A stretch of DNA of 37,763 nt from Candidatus Woesearchaeota archaeon (GTDB lineage Archaea > Nanobdellota > Nanobdellia > Woesearchaeales > GW2011-AR4): the NCBI GenBank assembly GCA_023266475.1, contig JAHFQA010000006.1, forward strand, positions 1-37,763. Direction: 5' to 3'. Position 1 is the first letter of the stretch; every line of letters starts with the position of its first letter. The translations under genes were made by a program, and so were the position numbers. This document shows positions 386 through 23,717 of this stretch, piece after piece. Under the pieces are notes generated by a model. That model saw nothing but the letters and a program-made list of their open reading frames with translations. It made no database searches and had not been told where the DNA came from.

Positions 386-408
386 TTTCGAGGGGGAGAG
401 AACTCGAC

Positions 409-540
409 TCTGCGGACGCAGTTTTCCCACACTTCGTAGCTGAAAACGTATTTAACAGCGCGCATAAGTTCAACGCAATTTTTTCGGGGGCTAACGACGA
501 TATTGGGGCACACTCTCTTGTTGTGCTACGCACTTTATTT
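409..540. repeat. Mosaic intergenic repeat, copy A
   Basis: TCTGCGGACGCAG..CTTCGTAGCTGAAAA..TTAACA..ATAAGTT..GCAATTTTTTCGGGG..GACGA.ATTGGGGCA shared with copy at 21403-21505; tail GTGCTACGCACTTTATTT shared with 22.5 kb region. Confidence 0.8.
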
Positions 541-17681: not shown

Positions 17682-17745
17682 ATAATTAGATGTAAGGATA
17701 AAAAATCAGATTAAACATTATCAAATAAACAGAGTTTTGATAAAA

Positions 17746-18144
17746 ATGGAACAACAAATGGATGCTTTCACTCAAAAAAGATTTGAAATTATGGTTGAGA
17801 TGGCTACCAAGAAGCTTCAGCAGGAAATTAATTCTCTGAAGGAAGCATTTAATTCATTAAATGGTGAACTAACTTCAGTAAAAAGCCAAATGTCAAGAAT
17901 GCAGTTTCAGCCGCAGCAGCATGCTGTGCAGAGGACATTAACTGATGAGCCGCCGCAAGTTGAAAATTCCACTATCCAGCCAAAAAAGGAAGTAAAGATT
18001 GTTGATTGCAGGCCTGACAATGAGAGAAAGCAGGAATTTGTAAGCGGCGCTGCAAAGAACGCAGATCCTATAAGGCCAAGGTACGGCGATTACGAGCCAA
18101 AGGATGTAAGCATTGACAAGTTCTTTTATTTTGGAAGGAAATAG
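17746..18144 (+). CDS. Coiled-coil hypothetical protein
   Basis: MEQQMDAFTQKRFEIMVEMATKKLQQEINSLKEAFNSLNGELTSVKSQMSRMQ heptad-like N-terminus, conserved-looking C-terminus. Confidence 0.7.
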   Translation: MEQQMDAFTQKRFEIMVEMATKKLQQEINSLKEAFNSLNGELTSVKSQMSRMQFQPQQHAVQRTLTDEPPQVENSTIQPKKEVKIVDCRPDNERKQEFVSGAAKNADPIRPRYGDYEPKDVSIDKFFYFGRK

Positions 18145-18800
18145 TTTCCTCTTTTCTTTTGATCCTTATTTACAGCAGCGTATCCAATTAAACTTCTCTT
18201 TGACCTATAAATTTCAACTTTGTGCACGAGGCCTTTGCTGATTAAGGAGTCCAGAATTTGAGTTGCCTGCTTGGAATTAAGAGCACCTGATCTATCATTG
18301 ATTTTTGTATAGTAGGCAATGTATTTATCATTAAAGTATAATCCTCGCTCACTTGTTTGACTTTCACGCAAAAGGCCAATTATGGCTGACTCATTTGAAG
18401 TCAAATCGACTGCTTGATAGATAGATGCATTTGCAACTGCCTTTTGGGCTACTAAATTGCTCGAATATCCACTGAAAATATATCCTTGAGACGTTTGAAT
18501 GTTGACTCTTAATAATTTGTTTGCCTTAACATATCGTTCCATAAGGCTAACTGCATTATCAGGTGAAATATTGCCGTATGTGCCTTCGCCTCTCGGTGTA
18601 GCTTTGGCAACAATGCCGGATGGAAAGAATAAGACATTGCCTTTGCATAAGTCATCTAGTGTATGTTTAACCGCTTTGCCAGCTAGTGATATAACTCTCG
18701 ACGGATTAATATATTTTTCCCTGTGTTTTCCCTGAATATCCATGACTCTGGGTAAATGGCATCTAATTAAATATTTTTGTAGAATAATTGTTAAGTTCAA
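18126..18800 (-). CDS. Hypothetical protein, possible C-terminal winged-helix
   Basis: Long ORF; ALNSKQATQILDSLISKGLVHKVEIYRSKRSLIGYAAV resembles wHTH; true start may be 18743 (MDIQGK). Confidence 0.6.
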   Translation of the reverse strand: MNLTIILQKYLIRCHLPRVMDIQGKHREKYINPSRVISLAGKAVKHTLDDLCKGNVLFFPSGIVAKATPRGEGTYGNISPDNAVSLMERYVKANKLLRVNIQTSQGYIFSGYSSNLVAQKAVANASIYQAVDLTSNESAIIGLLRESQTSERGLYFNDKYIAYYTKINDRSGALNSKQATQILDSLISKGLVHKVEIYRSKRSLIGYAAVNKDQKKRGNYFLPK

Positions 18801-18850
18801 TTGAGAAAGGGGGCTAACGAACGAAACGGAGAAGGGCGAGAAATCCTAAA
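18790..18850. repeat. Mosaic intergenic repeat, copy G (fragment)
   Basis: GTTAAGTTCAATTGAGAAAGGGGGCTAACGAACGA; GGGGGCTAACGA shared with copy A, AATTGAGAAAGnGGGC in inverted orientation at 21388-21403. Confidence 0.6.
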
Positions 18851-20071
18851 CTACTCCTCAATCTTTTGCATTAAGTCGTCCATATCAACCGGACGAAATT
18901 TTGTTAATTCTGTTGATATGTTTATTCTCTTATTTTTTTTATCAATAAAAGGGCATTCATCTAACTTATTGTTATGGTGATGTCCGCAGATTGCCCAGTC
19001 ATCCCAACTTGATGGGATATTGGCAGGATCGTGCACCAGGAAAAATCTTCTGCCTTTGTATTCTATAATCAGGCTATCAAAAACATTCTTTGTTTTGGAA
19101 ATTCTATCATGTTGGTTTCTTTCTCCAGTGGGTTTATAAGAAAAACCCCTAATGAAGAATGTATCCCCATTAAGTTTAGTCAGCCAATAATCAGCGCTTC
19201 TACTTTCTTTTCCAAAGCTCATGTCGCCAAGGAAATAAACTTTATCCTTCTTGCTAACTGTGTTATTCCAGTTATTGACAAGAGTCCTATTCATATCTTT
19301 TGTATTTAGAAATGGTCTTTTACAATATTTGATTATATTCGTGTGGTCTAAATGTAAGTCCGAAGTAACAAAAGTCCTTGGTTTTCTGAAAACATTTTTC
19401 AGTTTTTCAGTAAAACTTTTATATTCTACATTGATTCTTTCTTCTATAAATTCATTCGGATTAAATTTGTTCTCAAAATGACCTTTCAATAAATCCAATG
19501 TTTGAGCATAAACTCTTTTGTCCTTCGCTAATCTTCTTACTAATGGTCTTCTGAGTAAGAAATCATATTCTCTTAATATAAACCCGCCCTTTAACAATGT
19601 TGCTCTTACCATTACATGCTTAAAATTCAATTTTGATTTTCTATTGATGTAATCCTTTATAGCAGAAAATTTGTCTTCTGGTAGTTTCATTGCTATTGTC
19701 GCATGAAATGCAAAATCTTTTTCATAATCAAATGGTCTAAGCTGACAATACGGTTTTAGTATTTGGGATAGATTCCATCTAAATTCTTCTAATTCTTTGC
19801 TTGGATTAACATCCAAAAATACAACTTTGCTGTTTTCAAAAGCGCTAAAACCATCAATCTCAAAATTCATTAAAGGGCTTTTAGAACATAATCGGTTAAA
19901 ATCGCCAATTAATCTTTTTTCATCATTTGTATAAAATGGACCTACTAAAGTTATATGTGGTATTGCTCGTTTATATCCTAATCTAAATCGTCTATTAATT
20001 TCATAAACCAATTTCTTTATTTCATATTTTGCTTTTCCAAGAAACCTGAATTCTATAAGATAGTGGACCAT
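18851..20071 (-). CDS. 2H phosphoesterase (LigT-like) fused to calcineurin-like metallophosphoesterase
   Basis: Two HxT/S motifs (PHITLVGPF, FHATIAM) then TSDLHLDHTNIIKYCKRPF, FLGDMSFG, GHHHN; ATG is 1 nt after the HEPN stop. Confidence 0.85.
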   Translation of the reverse strand: MVHYLIEFRFLGKAKYEIKKLVYEINRRFRLGYKRAIPHITLVGPFYTNDEKRLIGDFNRLCSKSPLMNFEIDGFSAFENSKVVFLDVNPSKELEEFRWNLSQILKPYCQLRPFDYEKDFAFHATIAMKLPEDKFSAIKDYINRKSKLNFKHVMVRATLLKGGFILREYDFLLRRPLVRRLAKDKRVYAQTLDLLKGHFENKFNPNEFIEERINVEYKSFTEKLKNVFRKPRTFVTSDLHLDHTNIIKYCKRPFLNTKDMNRTLVNNWNNTVSKKDKVYFLGDMSFGKESRSADYWLTKLNGDTFFIRGFSYKPTGERNQHDRISKTKNVFDSLIIEYKGRRFFLVHDPANIPSSWDDWAICGHHHNNKLDECPFIDKKNKRINISTELTKFRPVDMDDLMQKIEE

Positions 20072-20072
20072 C

Positions 20073-20666
20073 TTACTTACTGCTTTTGTCAATAATTTTT
20101 TTTATTTCTCTCCTGAATTTTTGTGCGCGTTCCAGAGAAGTTTTTGCTTTTGATTCCACAAGCACTGTTCCCATCTCATAAGTGAATGAACTTCTTTTCT
20201 TTTTTTCAAAGAAATAATCTTCCATCAATTCATCAGCTTTTTGCTTTCCAAGAAGTTCAGCAGCATCTTCTTTTGCTTCAATAAAATCTTCCAAAAATTC
20301 TTTCTGTAATTTACCTGTGAGGTAAAAATAGTATATCATCGCATCAAATGTTACAGCATGTATAGAAAGGTCAGCTTTTATCTTAATTCCATTATTTTCC
20401 AAGAGTGCTCTCGCCATGTAAAACATGCTGTAATAACTGGCATTGACTACCCAGAGCAAGCCATTGAAGCTAGTAAAGCCAAGAGATTCCTGTTTTTTAG
20501 GATTGGTTGATAGTTCAAATAGTGCTTTTGCAGAATCGATTGAATCGTTAGCGTTCTTGAGGAAAAAATCTACATGTTCTGGCTTTCCTTTTGATTTTAT
20601 TGCACCATCACTGATAAATTGCTTAACTCTGTTTTCTGCTTCTTTTAACTTTTTTTCATCCAACAT
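20073..20666 (-). CDS. HEPN-domain protein
   Basis: VNASYYSMFYMARALLENNGIKIKADLSIHAVTF, resembles HEPN/UPF0332-type core. Confidence 0.75.
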   Translation of the reverse strand: MLDEKKLKEAENRVKQFISDGAIKSKGKPEHVDFFLKNANDSIDSAKALFELSTNPKKQESLGFTSFNGLLWVVNASYYSMFYMARALLENNGIKIKADLSIHAVTFDAMIYYFYLTGKLQKEFLEDFIEAKEDAAELLGKQKADELMEDYFFEKKKRSSFTYEMGTVLVESKAKTSLERAQKFRREIKKIIDKSSK

Positions 20667-21266
20667 TTATGATCGCCCCCTTTCAATTAATCTGTAAAAC
20701 AGTTCTGCACCATATAAGATTATATGTTTATTCAAAATCTCATTCATCACATTTTTTTCATCACGTTTGGAAAGCATTTCGTAAACACTTTCAAATCCTA
20801 TAACTCTTTCCTCAAAGGACAAGTCATAATTTGATGCAATGTTATGTAAAAATTTCTCATGAAATTCTATCTTATTAGTGCTGTCCACAATTAGTAGTAT
20901 ATCAATATCTCTTGGTTTACTCGAATCAACAGTTGAGCCAAAAACAAGCAAAACAAAACTATCCTGTTTGATTTTTTTAATAACTTCATCTGCAAAAAGC
21001 TTAATGTCCTTGAATCTATCAAGTAAGTTATCTCTTTTTAAATACTCAGCAAAAGCAAGAGTTTCATGATGAATCTTGTAATTTAAGCTAAGATTTTTAT
21101 GTTTATCTTGCCCAACAATTTTAGAATCTATTAATGGCTGTATTGCTCGATGTGTAAGGGATACATGCATTTTTAGTCTTCTTGCTACCTCCCTTAGAGT
21201 AAACGATTCAGTGATATAACTAGTAAATAATTGTAATATCTTGGCTGTAGACTTATGGATATACAT
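20667..21266 (-). CDS. wHTH-MNT nucleotidyltransferase
   Basis: N-terminal HTH (LREVARRLKMHVSLTHRAIQPLIDSKIV) and NTase motif VFGSTVDSSKPRDIDILLIV; RBS GGTGA upstream of ATG 21266. Confidence 0.88.
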   Translation of the reverse strand: MYIHKSTAKILQLFTSYITESFTLREVARRLKMHVSLTHRAIQPLIDSKIVGQDKHKNLSLNYKIHHETLAFAEYLKRDNLLDRFKDIKLFADEVIKKIKQDSFVLLVFGSTVDSSKPRDIDILLIVDSTNKIEFHEKFLHNIASNYDLSFEERVIGFESVYEMLSKRDEKNVMNEILNKHIILYGAELFYRLIERGRS

Positions 21267-21267
21267 A

Positions 21268-21295
21268 TGTTCACCTTTATATGAACAAGTGTTCA
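21268..21295. promoter_or_regulatory. Operator-like TGAACA/TGTTCA palindromes upstream of wHTH-MNT gene
   Basis: TGTTCA(21268-21273), TGAACA-AG-TGTTCA(21282-21295) adjacent to TATA-like TTTATATA. Confidence 0.6.
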
Positions 21296-21339
21296 CTTAA
21301 TAGTATATAAATGTTACGATTTCCATTAGGTTTTCTCGC

Positions 21340-21505
21340 CTTGATACTTGTTCTTGATGTATCGCTTCGCTCATTTGATAGAACGACGCCCTCTTTCTCA
21401 ATTCTGCGGACGCAGGTTTTCAGAACTTCGTAGCTGAAAATGAACTTAACAAGAATTTCTATAAGTTAGTTGCAATTTTTTCGGGGCAAAGACGAGATTG
21501 GGGCA
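21340..21505. repeat. Mosaic intergenic repeat, copy B
   Basis: Aligns end to end with copy A over 21403-21505; left part aligns with copy C (CTTGATACTTnTT...TTGATAGAACGA). Confidence 0.8.
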
Positions 21506-21574
21506 ATAGAATACGAGAGCTTGACAGCTGACGGCAATAATTTTAAATATACCTCCTTATTTCTATCTATAGTA

Positions 21575-22465
21575 ATGGATGCTAAAACATATTCACCTAG
21601 TGGAGCAAGTCCAACAACTTCTAATGAAGAACAAGGATTCTTTAGAAAGCACAAATACGGTTTAATTCAGACGGGATTGTTCACAGCATGCGGAGGGATG
21701 ATGTATGGGATGCTTACATTATTGATGGGGCAGATTGTTGTTAATAGTTCAGAAGTCTATGAGTATCATAATCCAAGAGCAGTTGAGCAAAGGACTCAAA
21801 ATAGGAGAGGGAATGTAAAGAAAGATGCAGTTCTCACTTTGATGGATAAAGTTGAGCCCTATATGATGCCAATAGTTAGAGCCACAGAAGCTCCGTGGAG
21901 AAAAATGAGTTATGTAATGCCTGAACATTATAAGCAAGCAAGAGCTAAAGCATTCCAAATTGCAGGAATTGATGAAAATAACCCATTGCATGATAAAAAA
22001 AGATTTGATCTTTACAGACAACTTGGATTTGCAGTTTTAAGAGATGAAGATGGAAGCAGAGGAATTTATATTCCTTTCAAAGTTTTGAAAGACTTTATCG
22101 AGAAAAATTCTTCATTTAGAAATCCAGAATGGGACCAATTGCTTGAACCAGAGACTACTTCAGGTGGAAAGTATACAGGAACTTTAATGGGTAAAGTGTT
22201 TCACAAAGCCGACTCAAAAGCTCAAGGTGGTAATGAAGATGGGGTTGCCGATAATTTAGAATGGAACAGAGCTTTGAAAGCAATGGGTTATACTACTGTT
22301 GATGACATTATCGAGGATATAATCCAAAAAGTAAAAGCCAATAGTCCTGAATTAAATGCCGAATTAAGACAGACAATTAGAAGTGTAAAAAAAGGCGATA
22401 AAATAGCTGATTTTGATACAGGACTTCCAACAAGAACGTGGGAATCCTATCTACAGATGAAGTAA
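21575..22465 (+). CDS. Hypothetical membrane-anchored protein with EF-hand-like segment
   Basis: TM segment YGLIQTGLFTACGGMMYGMLTLLMGQIVV; ADSKAQGGNEDGVADNLEWNRALKAMGY resembles a Ca-binding loop. Confidence 0.6.
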   Translation: MDAKTYSPSGASPTTSNEEQGFFRKHKYGLIQTGLFTACGGMMYGMLTLLMGQIVVNSSEVYEYHNPRAVEQRTQNRRGNVKKDAVLTLMDKVEPYMMPIVRATEAPWRKMSYVMPEHYKQARAKAFQIAGIDENNPLHDKKRFDLYRQLGFAVLRDEDGSRGIYIPFKVLKDFIEKNSSFRNPEWDQLLEPETTSGGKYTGTLMGKVFHKADSKAQGGNEDGVADNLEWNRALKAMGYTTVDDIIEDIIQKVKANSPELNAELRQTIRSVKKGDKIADFDTGLPTRTWESYLQMK

Positions 22466-22477
22466 TTATTTAATTCT

Positions 22478-22620
22478 GTTGCCCCTTAATGTATTTTACT
22501 TTATTGTGCTTCGCACTTTATTTACTTTGCCCCAAAAAAAACTTTGCTTCGCAACCTCATTGCATTCTCCTTTCAGTCGTAGGAATATTTAACGTGAGTC
22601 CCAATGCGTTTCCAATCAGG
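22478..22620. repeat. Mosaic intergenic repeat, copy D
   Basis: GTGCTTCGCACTTTATTT (cf. copy A tail) and GCCCCAAAAAAAACTTTGCTTCGCAACC.C.TTGCA (cf. copy C). Confidence 0.65.
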
Positions 22621-22724
22621 TATATTTCCAGATATTTTCTTTCTTATTTGTTAATATATCTTCACGGTCGAATAATCGGACACCGAATAAACTCAAAATC
22701 CGTATTATTTTAAAGGAGAATATT

Positions 22725-23009
22725 TCAATCAACCATAAACAATTTGCTGTCTTTTCCAACATCGAATAATCCAAGCCTTGCACCAATATCAAGAAAAGCA
22801 TGTGCGTAAACAACTGCACCGAACGCATTTACCAGATCTCCTTTTTTCTCAAAGTATTTTGCATCGTTATAATACCTTTGCGCCAAGTCAAGCAAATCCT
22901 CTGCCTCTTTTTTATGCTTTTCAACGATTTTAACTTTTTTCAGGGCTTTAGCTGTAAGACCAAAGTATTTTGTTAATTTATCTTTAATACTTATTCCAGC
23001 GTTCATCAT
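22725..23009 (-). CDS. DUF357-family archaeal protein
   Basis: DLAQRYYNDAKYFEKKGDLVNAFGAVVYAHAFLDIGARLGLFDV. Confidence 0.85.
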   Translation of the reverse strand: MMNAGISIKDKLTKYFGLTAKALKKVKIVEKHKKEAEDLLDLAQRYYNDAKYFEKKGDLVNAFGAVVYAHAFLDIGARLGLFDVGKDSKLFMVD

Positions 23010-23103: not shown

Positions 23104-23481
23104 TTAAGGCTCAACTCTTTTTATTTTCAAATCATCAAAATCTTTATCATACGAAACAAATTTTGAGCAATTGTGAATTAATGCTGCAGCATAATTTATT
23201 AAGTCAAAAATATTAAGGTCGTATTTTTCTATTCTTCTAAATGCTTCAAAAAGCAAATCTTTGTCTAAATCGATAATAAGGCCTTGATTCTTGAACAAGG
23301 ATTTAATGGAATTTGTTGCATAATCTTTATCCTTTCTTATTATTGAAATTGCGTGATGGGCTTCTACAAGGCATAGGGCATTGGTAATAAACTCTTCAGA
23401 AAGAACTCTGCGACAATTTTCTTTTTCACTATTATTTGTAAATGCCTTTATTATCACGTTTGAATCAACGAATTGCATCAT
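23104..23481 (-). CDS. PIN-domain toxin (VapC-like)
   Basis: MQFVDSNVIIKAF...NIFDLINYAAALIHNCSKFVSYDKDFDDL. Confidence 0.85.
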   Translation of the reverse strand: MMQFVDSNVIIKAFTNNSEKENCRRVLSEEFITNALCLVEAHHAISIIRKDKDYATNSIKSLFKNQGLIIDLDKDLLFEAFRRIEKYDLNIFDLINYAAALIHNCSKFVSYDKDFDDLKIKRVEP

Positions 23482-23705
23482 CTTTTATGCCTCAATTCAT
23501 GGCTTAACTTGATTACTTGCCGTGTGCTGAATTTTTTCTTTTCCTTCATCTCATCACATTTCCTGTACATTTCATTTATGTCTGGAATTTCCTCGTCTTC
23601 AAGCATCCTTTTTAGCACAGAGTCATAGCTTTCATTTGGGTGTTCTTTCTTCTGGCTTAACCTTCTCTTTGTGTTTTCATATAGCTGGATAGTTGTTATT
23701 TTCAT
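23478..23705 (-). CDS. VapB-like antitoxin
   Basis: MKITTIQLYENTKRRLSQKKEHPNESYDSVLKRMLED; stop overlaps PIN start. Confidence 0.8.
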   Translation of the reverse strand: MKITTIQLYENTKRRLSQKKEHPNESYDSVLKRMLEDEEIPDINEMYRKCDEMKEKKKFSTRQVIKLSHELRHKR

Positions 23706-23717
23706 GTTATTCACCTG

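Follow-up and report, generated by a model that had tools for sequence, protein, structure and literature searches.

Organization of the locus

Three genes lie head to tail on the minus strand of the window, by which we mean the whole stretch of 37,763 nucleotides that was analysed, from an archaeon of DPANN type. A winged-helix minimal nucleotidyltransferase (wHTH-MNT) is followed by a HEPN protein and then by a fusion of a 2H phosphoesterase to a metallophosphoesterase, with gaps of 0 and 1 nt: the HEPN ATG abuts the MNT stop codon, and the fusion ATG lies one base past the HEPN TAA. The tight packing described in an earlier note on this DNA is confirmed by the open reading frames, as is the length of about 200 aa that it gave for both partners, and the extra length of the MNT protein is accounted for by its winged helix. 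The features are as follows.

20667..21266, minus strand: winged helix plus minimal nucleotidyltransferase (MNT), 199 aa, PDC-M05A type, GS-x8-DID; presumed antitoxin and autoregulator
20073..20666, minus strand: HEPN protein of 197 aa (class II / PF05168 type), with H103 and R158-x4-Y163 invariant and RX4-6H absent; presumed toxin, Y163 the presumed nucleotidylation site
18851..20071, minus strand: fusion of 2H phosphoesterase (about residues 1–175; H39-x-T41, H123-x-T125) and metallophosphoesterase (about 233–406), 406 aa; optional third gene
20069..20075, minus strand: junction of HEPN stop TAA, one base and fusion ATG; the 1-nt spacing also occurs in the remnant in genome G113 and in genome G176, where the third gene is another one
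18783..18849, no strand: left flank with three inverted-repeat arms facing the right flank (18783–18802, 18799–18814, 18835–18849)
21326..21457, no strand: right flank with the matching arms (21326–21340, 21388–21403, 21438–21457), within a dispersed repeat of the genome

Pfam recognizes the MNT protein weakly (Polbeta, 0.057, and no match to PF01909 itself), and its match to the PADLOC profile PDC-M05A is of modest score (2.6e-8). Profile searches support a winged helix at its N-terminus (PDB 3r0a, 4e-5) and, at its C-terminus, a nucleotidyltransferase (NTase; 9xbd, 3e-5), in which G110, S111, D120 and D122 are invariant among 29 aligned homologues. GS and DXD stand at a spacing of x8 in the window protein and those closely related to it, and at the usual x10 in others, among them most of the distant homologues.

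The HEPN protein is a borderline match to PF05168 (E 2.5e-4, 21.6 bits, just below the 22-bit cut-off) and a modest one to PDC-M05B (4.6e-4). H103 and E154-x2-K157-R158-x4-Y163 are invariant in the 25 aligned sequences of the family, and the classic RX4HXY / RX4-6H motif of HepT is absent from all 25, so the HepT chemistry that the earlier note had carried over to this protein is not transferable as stated. There is a weak alignment between its C-terminal R-x4-Y and the equal motif of the solved HEPN/NTase complex 9xbd, and the HEPN protein of an unrelated pair type (type B, the kind found in genomes G189 and G313, the window pair being type A) aligns with AF0298/2hsb across its own R-x4-Y.

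These two adjacent genes match both PDC-M05 profiles. The earlier note was right to read them as a toxin–antitoxin-type module. The two-gene core is a known class II (PF05168-type) HEPN/MNT module, already catalogued as PADLOC candidate PDC-M05. PDC-M05 has been presented as a nucleotidyltransferase with a HEPN protein, enriched in archaea and with an antiviral role still to be confirmed, in a paper that finds multiple PDCs enriched in DPANN (PMC12988326). It corresponds to the class II HEPN/MNT modules that carry PF05168, lack RX4HXY and have a conserved Tyr (PMC7641770), and to the HEPN-T group (PMC3710099).

The third gene had been described as a 2H and calcineurin-type phosphoesterase fusion, and this description stands. 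Pfam gives PF13563 (2_5_RNA_ligase2) at 2.6e-17 and Metallophos_2 at just 0.068; a profile search identifies the metallophosphoesterase half more securely (PDB 1xm7, 1.4e-21), and the sole solved 2H protein found for the other half is BSU11850 of Bacillus subtilis (2d4g). The catalytic motifs of both halves (PHITL/FHATI; DxH, GD, HD, GHHH) are kept across 10 homologues, so the fusion is not a chance reading frame. In these 10 homologues H39, H123 and T125 of the 2H half are invariant and residue 41 is T or S, leaving both HxT/S motifs present, and the metal ligands of the metallophosphoesterase half are intact (D238, H240, D283, H321, D322, H347, H364 and H366 invariant). The metal loop, usually GNHD, reads GFSYKPTGERNQHD in the window fusion (19106–19147, residues 309–322); this insertion is common to the window, G124, G109 and G285 and missing in six other homologues. 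The fusion is also a mosaic, its 2H half being closest to those of locus L049 and G189 (82 and 81 per cent) and its phosphoesterase C-terminus to those of G124 and G109 (84 and 80 per cent). Two AlphaFold models, one from a single sequence and one from a three-row alignment, were too poor to be used whole (mean pLDDT 48.6 and 48.7); the metallophosphoesterase half alone matched 1xm7.

Spread of the pair and its insertion site

Homologues of the HEPN protein are present in 148 of the 295 genomes of the archaeal order. Directly 5' of HEPN there is a wHTH-MNT gene in all related loci but one, 28 out of 29, the exception (L028) being cut at a contig end. Copies that are 80–93 per cent identical occur across different families, and we therefore read them as horizontal transfer: the pair has spread in this way within the order, and the window locus is horizontally acquired. 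One broken copy of the module was seen in genome G088 (L032/L090), where HEPN ends early, after about residue 126. The sequence that follows resembles what we take to be the end of an IS200/IS605-type element.

The three genes occupy an insertion hot spot. All are missing between the counterparts of genes 17737–18144 and 22725–23009 in 11 of 11 congeners, as read across the ftsZ-TPR...DUF357...rrp42 block, and the variable slot between these conserved genes (18144–22725) spans about 4.6 kb in the window versus about 0.4–1.5 kb in the 11 congeners. The reading frames beside the operon (18126–18800 and 21470–22465) give no Pfam hit that passes the cut-off, and neither was seen at this site in the congeners; an Rfam scan of the window returned no match. 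In the same region, a PIN-domain gene (23104–23714) with a small upstream DUF7557-like gene forms a VapBC-like pair, to which there is a partial match at the equivalent site in G009 (L173).

The operon is flanked by inverted-repeat arms of 15–20 nt, with an alignment score of 54 against a background maximum of 45 among 88 pairs of the same spacing. The dispersed repeat upstream of the MNT gene (21339–21451) has copies at window positions 403–457 and on contig C80 of this genome (17112–17223) at 74–82 per cent, and it is arms in this repeat that pair with sequence downstream of the fusion gene. A transposon with terminal inverted repeats was considered and rejected, and mobility by these repeats is not claimed, because the right arm lies in the dispersed repeat and arms of this kind are absent around the other MNT–HEPN pairs examined.

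How often a phosphoesterase follows the pair

A fixed three-gene set, as the earlier note had envisaged, does not describe these genomes. Twenty-nine related HEPN loci of type A were surveyed besides the window, two of them incomplete (that of G113 cut inside HEPN, L028 with its MNT off the contig), and a fusion homologue was found in the 3' flank (0.4–1.5 kb) of none of the 27 readable pairs, window and G113 left out. The nearest relatives of the window pair (G176, G235, G228 and G088) lack the fusion. Among 30 HEPN loci of type B, MNT lies upstream in 28 and a phosphoesterase behind HEPN in only 2 of these 28, both in the genomes that seeded the search. Conversely, full-length fusions occur with no MNT–HEPN alongside in G124, G202, G108, G048, G285, G425 and an Aenigmatarchaeota MAG (L049), most full-length fusions being solitary or behind unrelated genes. 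A conserved MNT–HEPN–2H/metallophosphoesterase system is ruled out by the neighbourhoods of these 30 type A and 30 type B loci.

What does occupy the position behind the pair differs from genome to genome. G176 has an unrelated reading frame of about 235–242 aa at the identical one-base junction (L018/L085, about 1708–2415); in L200 the type B pair is followed, by test, by a DUF4011/PDC-S37 helicase-like gene, and L191 and L202 have frames that look similar by eye; in L206 a PD-(D/E)XK nuclease follows it. The occupants of this slot vary and are conflict-related, which is what a defence island would lead one to expect. The first bases of the unrelated frame in G176, ATGGTCCA, are shared with the fusion, as though the remainder of the third gene had been replaced.

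The fusion is not a conserved neighbour of the pair, but it does recur. In G113, of the same order, contig C71 retains a remnant HEPN(106–197)-TAA-T-ATG-2H(1–36) with its 1-nt junction, contig C12 breaks off within the HEPN gene of an MNT–HEPN pair and shares its final 92 nt without a difference with C71, while contig C35 begins at fusion residue 5; we infer one three-gene locus broken by assembly, plus a remnant. The remnant (L076, C71 6293–7180) adjoins, by eye, an apparent intron-bearing tRNA gene. In G189 the fusion lies 2 nt downstream of the unrelated pair type, a wHTH-MNT of 195 aa (PDC-M05A, 3e-14) with a HEPN of 154 aa, and in G313 the same pair type is followed after 17 nt by a metallophosphoesterase without a 2H domain.

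Other genes, NTases among them, are also followed by a phosphoesterase. A metallophosphoesterase of the same family has a 4-nt overlap with the 3' end of an upstream gene in three genomes: AbiEii in G597 (PF08843, 2e-23; L137, 255–1666), a DUF6036 NTase in G414 (L135, 1492–2630) and a PDC-S01 ATPase in G607 (L142, 254–1998). The fusion of G109 starts 2 nt past a gene with a DUF4143/PDC-S01 C-terminus. In all, 29 phosphoesterase places were collected, about 25 with a readable 5' neighbourhood; this is an NTase module in 6 cases and PDC-S01 in 2. Once the window and G113 are set aside because of ascertainment and relatedness, NTase neighbours number 4 of 23 against an assumed background of 1–2 per cent (P = 8e-5 to 1e-3), that background being not a measured rate but one estimated from the 8 NTase matches of a 1.32-Mb genome, and the neighbourhoods having been inspected only after the pattern had been noticed. 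On the fusion tree the label 'behind MNT–HEPN' requires three changes.

Interpretation

Our main reading, to which we would assign a probability of roughly 40 per cent, is that the window carries a class II HEPN/MNT toxin–antitoxin module, gained horizontally, with an optional 2H-metallophosphoesterase accessory that acts on a phosphodiester made by the NTase. The analysis shows the order and spacing of the genes, their domain identities and intact motifs, the recurrence of phosphoesterases behind independent NTase modules and the horizontal gain, whereas each biochemical step is an inference. The winged-helix MNT would repress the operon and move AMP (or another NMP) onto HEPN, probably onto Tyr163 of the R-x4-Y motif, and HEPN would be kept harmless. 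When MNT is lost or inhibited HEPN would become active, probably on RNA or translation, and the phosphoesterase might take AMP off HEPN, as an eraser or re-activator, or trim the product written by the NTase. We know of no demonstrated activity of these 2H or metallophosphoesterase families on AMP-Tyr. Phosphoesterases follow an unrelated pair type as well (G189, G313), and other NTases too, as a functional link predicts, and for this reason the writer, effector and eraser of the earlier note survive as a hypothesis for an accessory rather than as the description of a fixed system. We read the third gene as an accessory that toxin modules built on a nucleotidyltransferase may carry or lack and that is swapped among them, perhaps reversing the nucleotide modification.

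A strong rival, only a little less credible to us, is that the phosphoesterase is a biochemically unlinked passenger of a defence or toxin–antitoxin island, where compact genomes and hot spots align mobile conflict genes and start/stop coupling only secures translation. The variable slot behind MNT–HEPN, the hot spot lacking the three genes in every congener and the mosaic of 2H and metallophosphoesterase halves between genomes are all in keeping with such a passenger, and phosphoesterases also lie behind Lon, LemA-like, SbcC-like and phage-like genes (named by eye). Less easily accommodated is the over-representation of NTase-type neighbours, from different families and at gaps of 1–2 nt or overlaps of 4 nt.

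RNA end processing seems unlikely. Here the 2H domain would open the 2',3'-cyclic phosphates of RNA cut by HEPN and the metallophosphoesterase would remove the phosphate, either healing the ends or blocking their re-ligation. A fusion of 2H and phosphatase is the chemically right pair for this, the 2H half is of PF13563/LigT type with both HxT motifs, and RNases of the HEPN type are said to produce 2',3'-cyclic ends (PMC3710099); however, this HEPN lacks RX4-6H, and the metallophosphoesterases of G313, G597, G414 and G607 come without 2H. The genome also encodes RtcB, and no RNA ligase gene was noticed beside the operon. RtcB joins 2',3'-cyclic or 3'-phosphate RNA ends, so that opening by 2H to a 2'-phosphate would hinder sealing; with RtcB present and the 2H domain absent in G313, healing fits less well. 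The AbiEii and PDC-S01 neighbours give no call for it either, and since what most of the toxin partners seen (class II MNT, AbiEii, DUF6036) have in common is nucleotidyl transfer and not HEPN, an eraser is favoured over RNA healing.

The viral protein Acb1 is a 2H-fold enzyme. That the fusion was picked up from viruses as a counter-defence or nucleotide-signal enzyme, acting on an oligonucleotide, cyclic or linear, much as phage Acb1 breaks down the cyclic nucleotides of immunity (PMC9117128), is improbable: 900 phage records hold a relative, but among the matches listed the best are all to the metallophosphoesterase half, no phage or plasmid record covers 80 per cent of the fusion, a scan of viral contigs for it found none, no cyclase lies beside the fusion gene, and the 2H profile finds BSU11850 and not Acb1. 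Haloarchaeal plasmid copies of the metallophosphoesterase have no MNT–HEPN annotated alongside.

Returning to the accessory of an NTase toxin module, the published models leave a place for an enzyme of this kind. In class I modules MntA puts three AMPs on a HepT Tyr and venom phosphodiesterase takes them off, the cellular phosphodiesterases that reverse HepT AMPylation being stated as unidentified by the authors, to whom no biochemistry on class II HEPN toxicity and nucleotidylation was known in 2020 (PMC7641770); a Legionella study likewise postulates a 'putative phosphodiesterase' (PMC11586414). Because it recurs behind NTase toxins, the phosphoesterase is a natural candidate for the missing AMP-removing enzyme. 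We consider it doubtful that phosphoesterases with or without 2H are a general, swappable eraser for DPANN-type NTase toxins (class II HEPN–MNT, AbiE and related NTases), which would here de-nucleotidylate HEPN and would be the phosphodiesterase left unnamed in those models. An essential eraser should be common, yet most MNT–HEPN pairs lack the phosphoesterase, and this counts against our main reading.

The core is known and the accessory unusual, and it is the recurrence of the accessory that deserves attention. A toxin-reactivating phosphodiesterase has been postulated yet left unnamed in two HEPN/MNT papers (PMC7641770, PMC11586414), and natural operons with a phosphoesterase as third gene, in two unrelated pair types, and relatives of that enzyme behind AbiEii and other NTases, make the question of AMPylation reversal directly testable with operons that are small and self-contained, and in class II modules. 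Should the link fail, the result would be a useful correction, with the slot behind MNT–HEPN a variable cargo site of defence islands.

Comparison with known systems

Both window proteins match the profiles of PDC-M05, which is likewise archaea-enriched; the available portion of its description presents two genes, with a phosphoesterase third gene unmentioned there (PMC12988326). The class II HEPN/MNT modules (PF05168/PF01909; PMC7641770) are similar in a HEPN without RX4HXY, a conserved Tyr and an upstream MNT with GS...DxD, whereas the window has a winged helix on MNT, an N-terminal extension on HEPN, GS-x8-DID in place of GS-x10-DXD, and the third gene. HepT/MntA (type VII, class I) shares the gene order, the type of NTase motif and a proposed nucleotidylation of a Tyr near a conserved Arg, and the window differs from it in lacking RX4HXY, in having Tyr at the position of the HepT His, in its larger proteins and in the third gene. 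The nearest solved relatives of the fusion halves, Aquifex aq_1665 (metallophosphoesterase, PDB 1xm7) and B. subtilis BSU11850 (2H protein, PDB 2d4g), are separate proteins, unlike the fusion, and both are 'hypothetical' in the PDB. Finally, the type IV AbiE system, although without a HEPN and with an NTase of another family, resembles the window in that its toxin, AbiEii, is an NTase, and in G597 it has a metallophosphoesterase of the same family at its 3' end.
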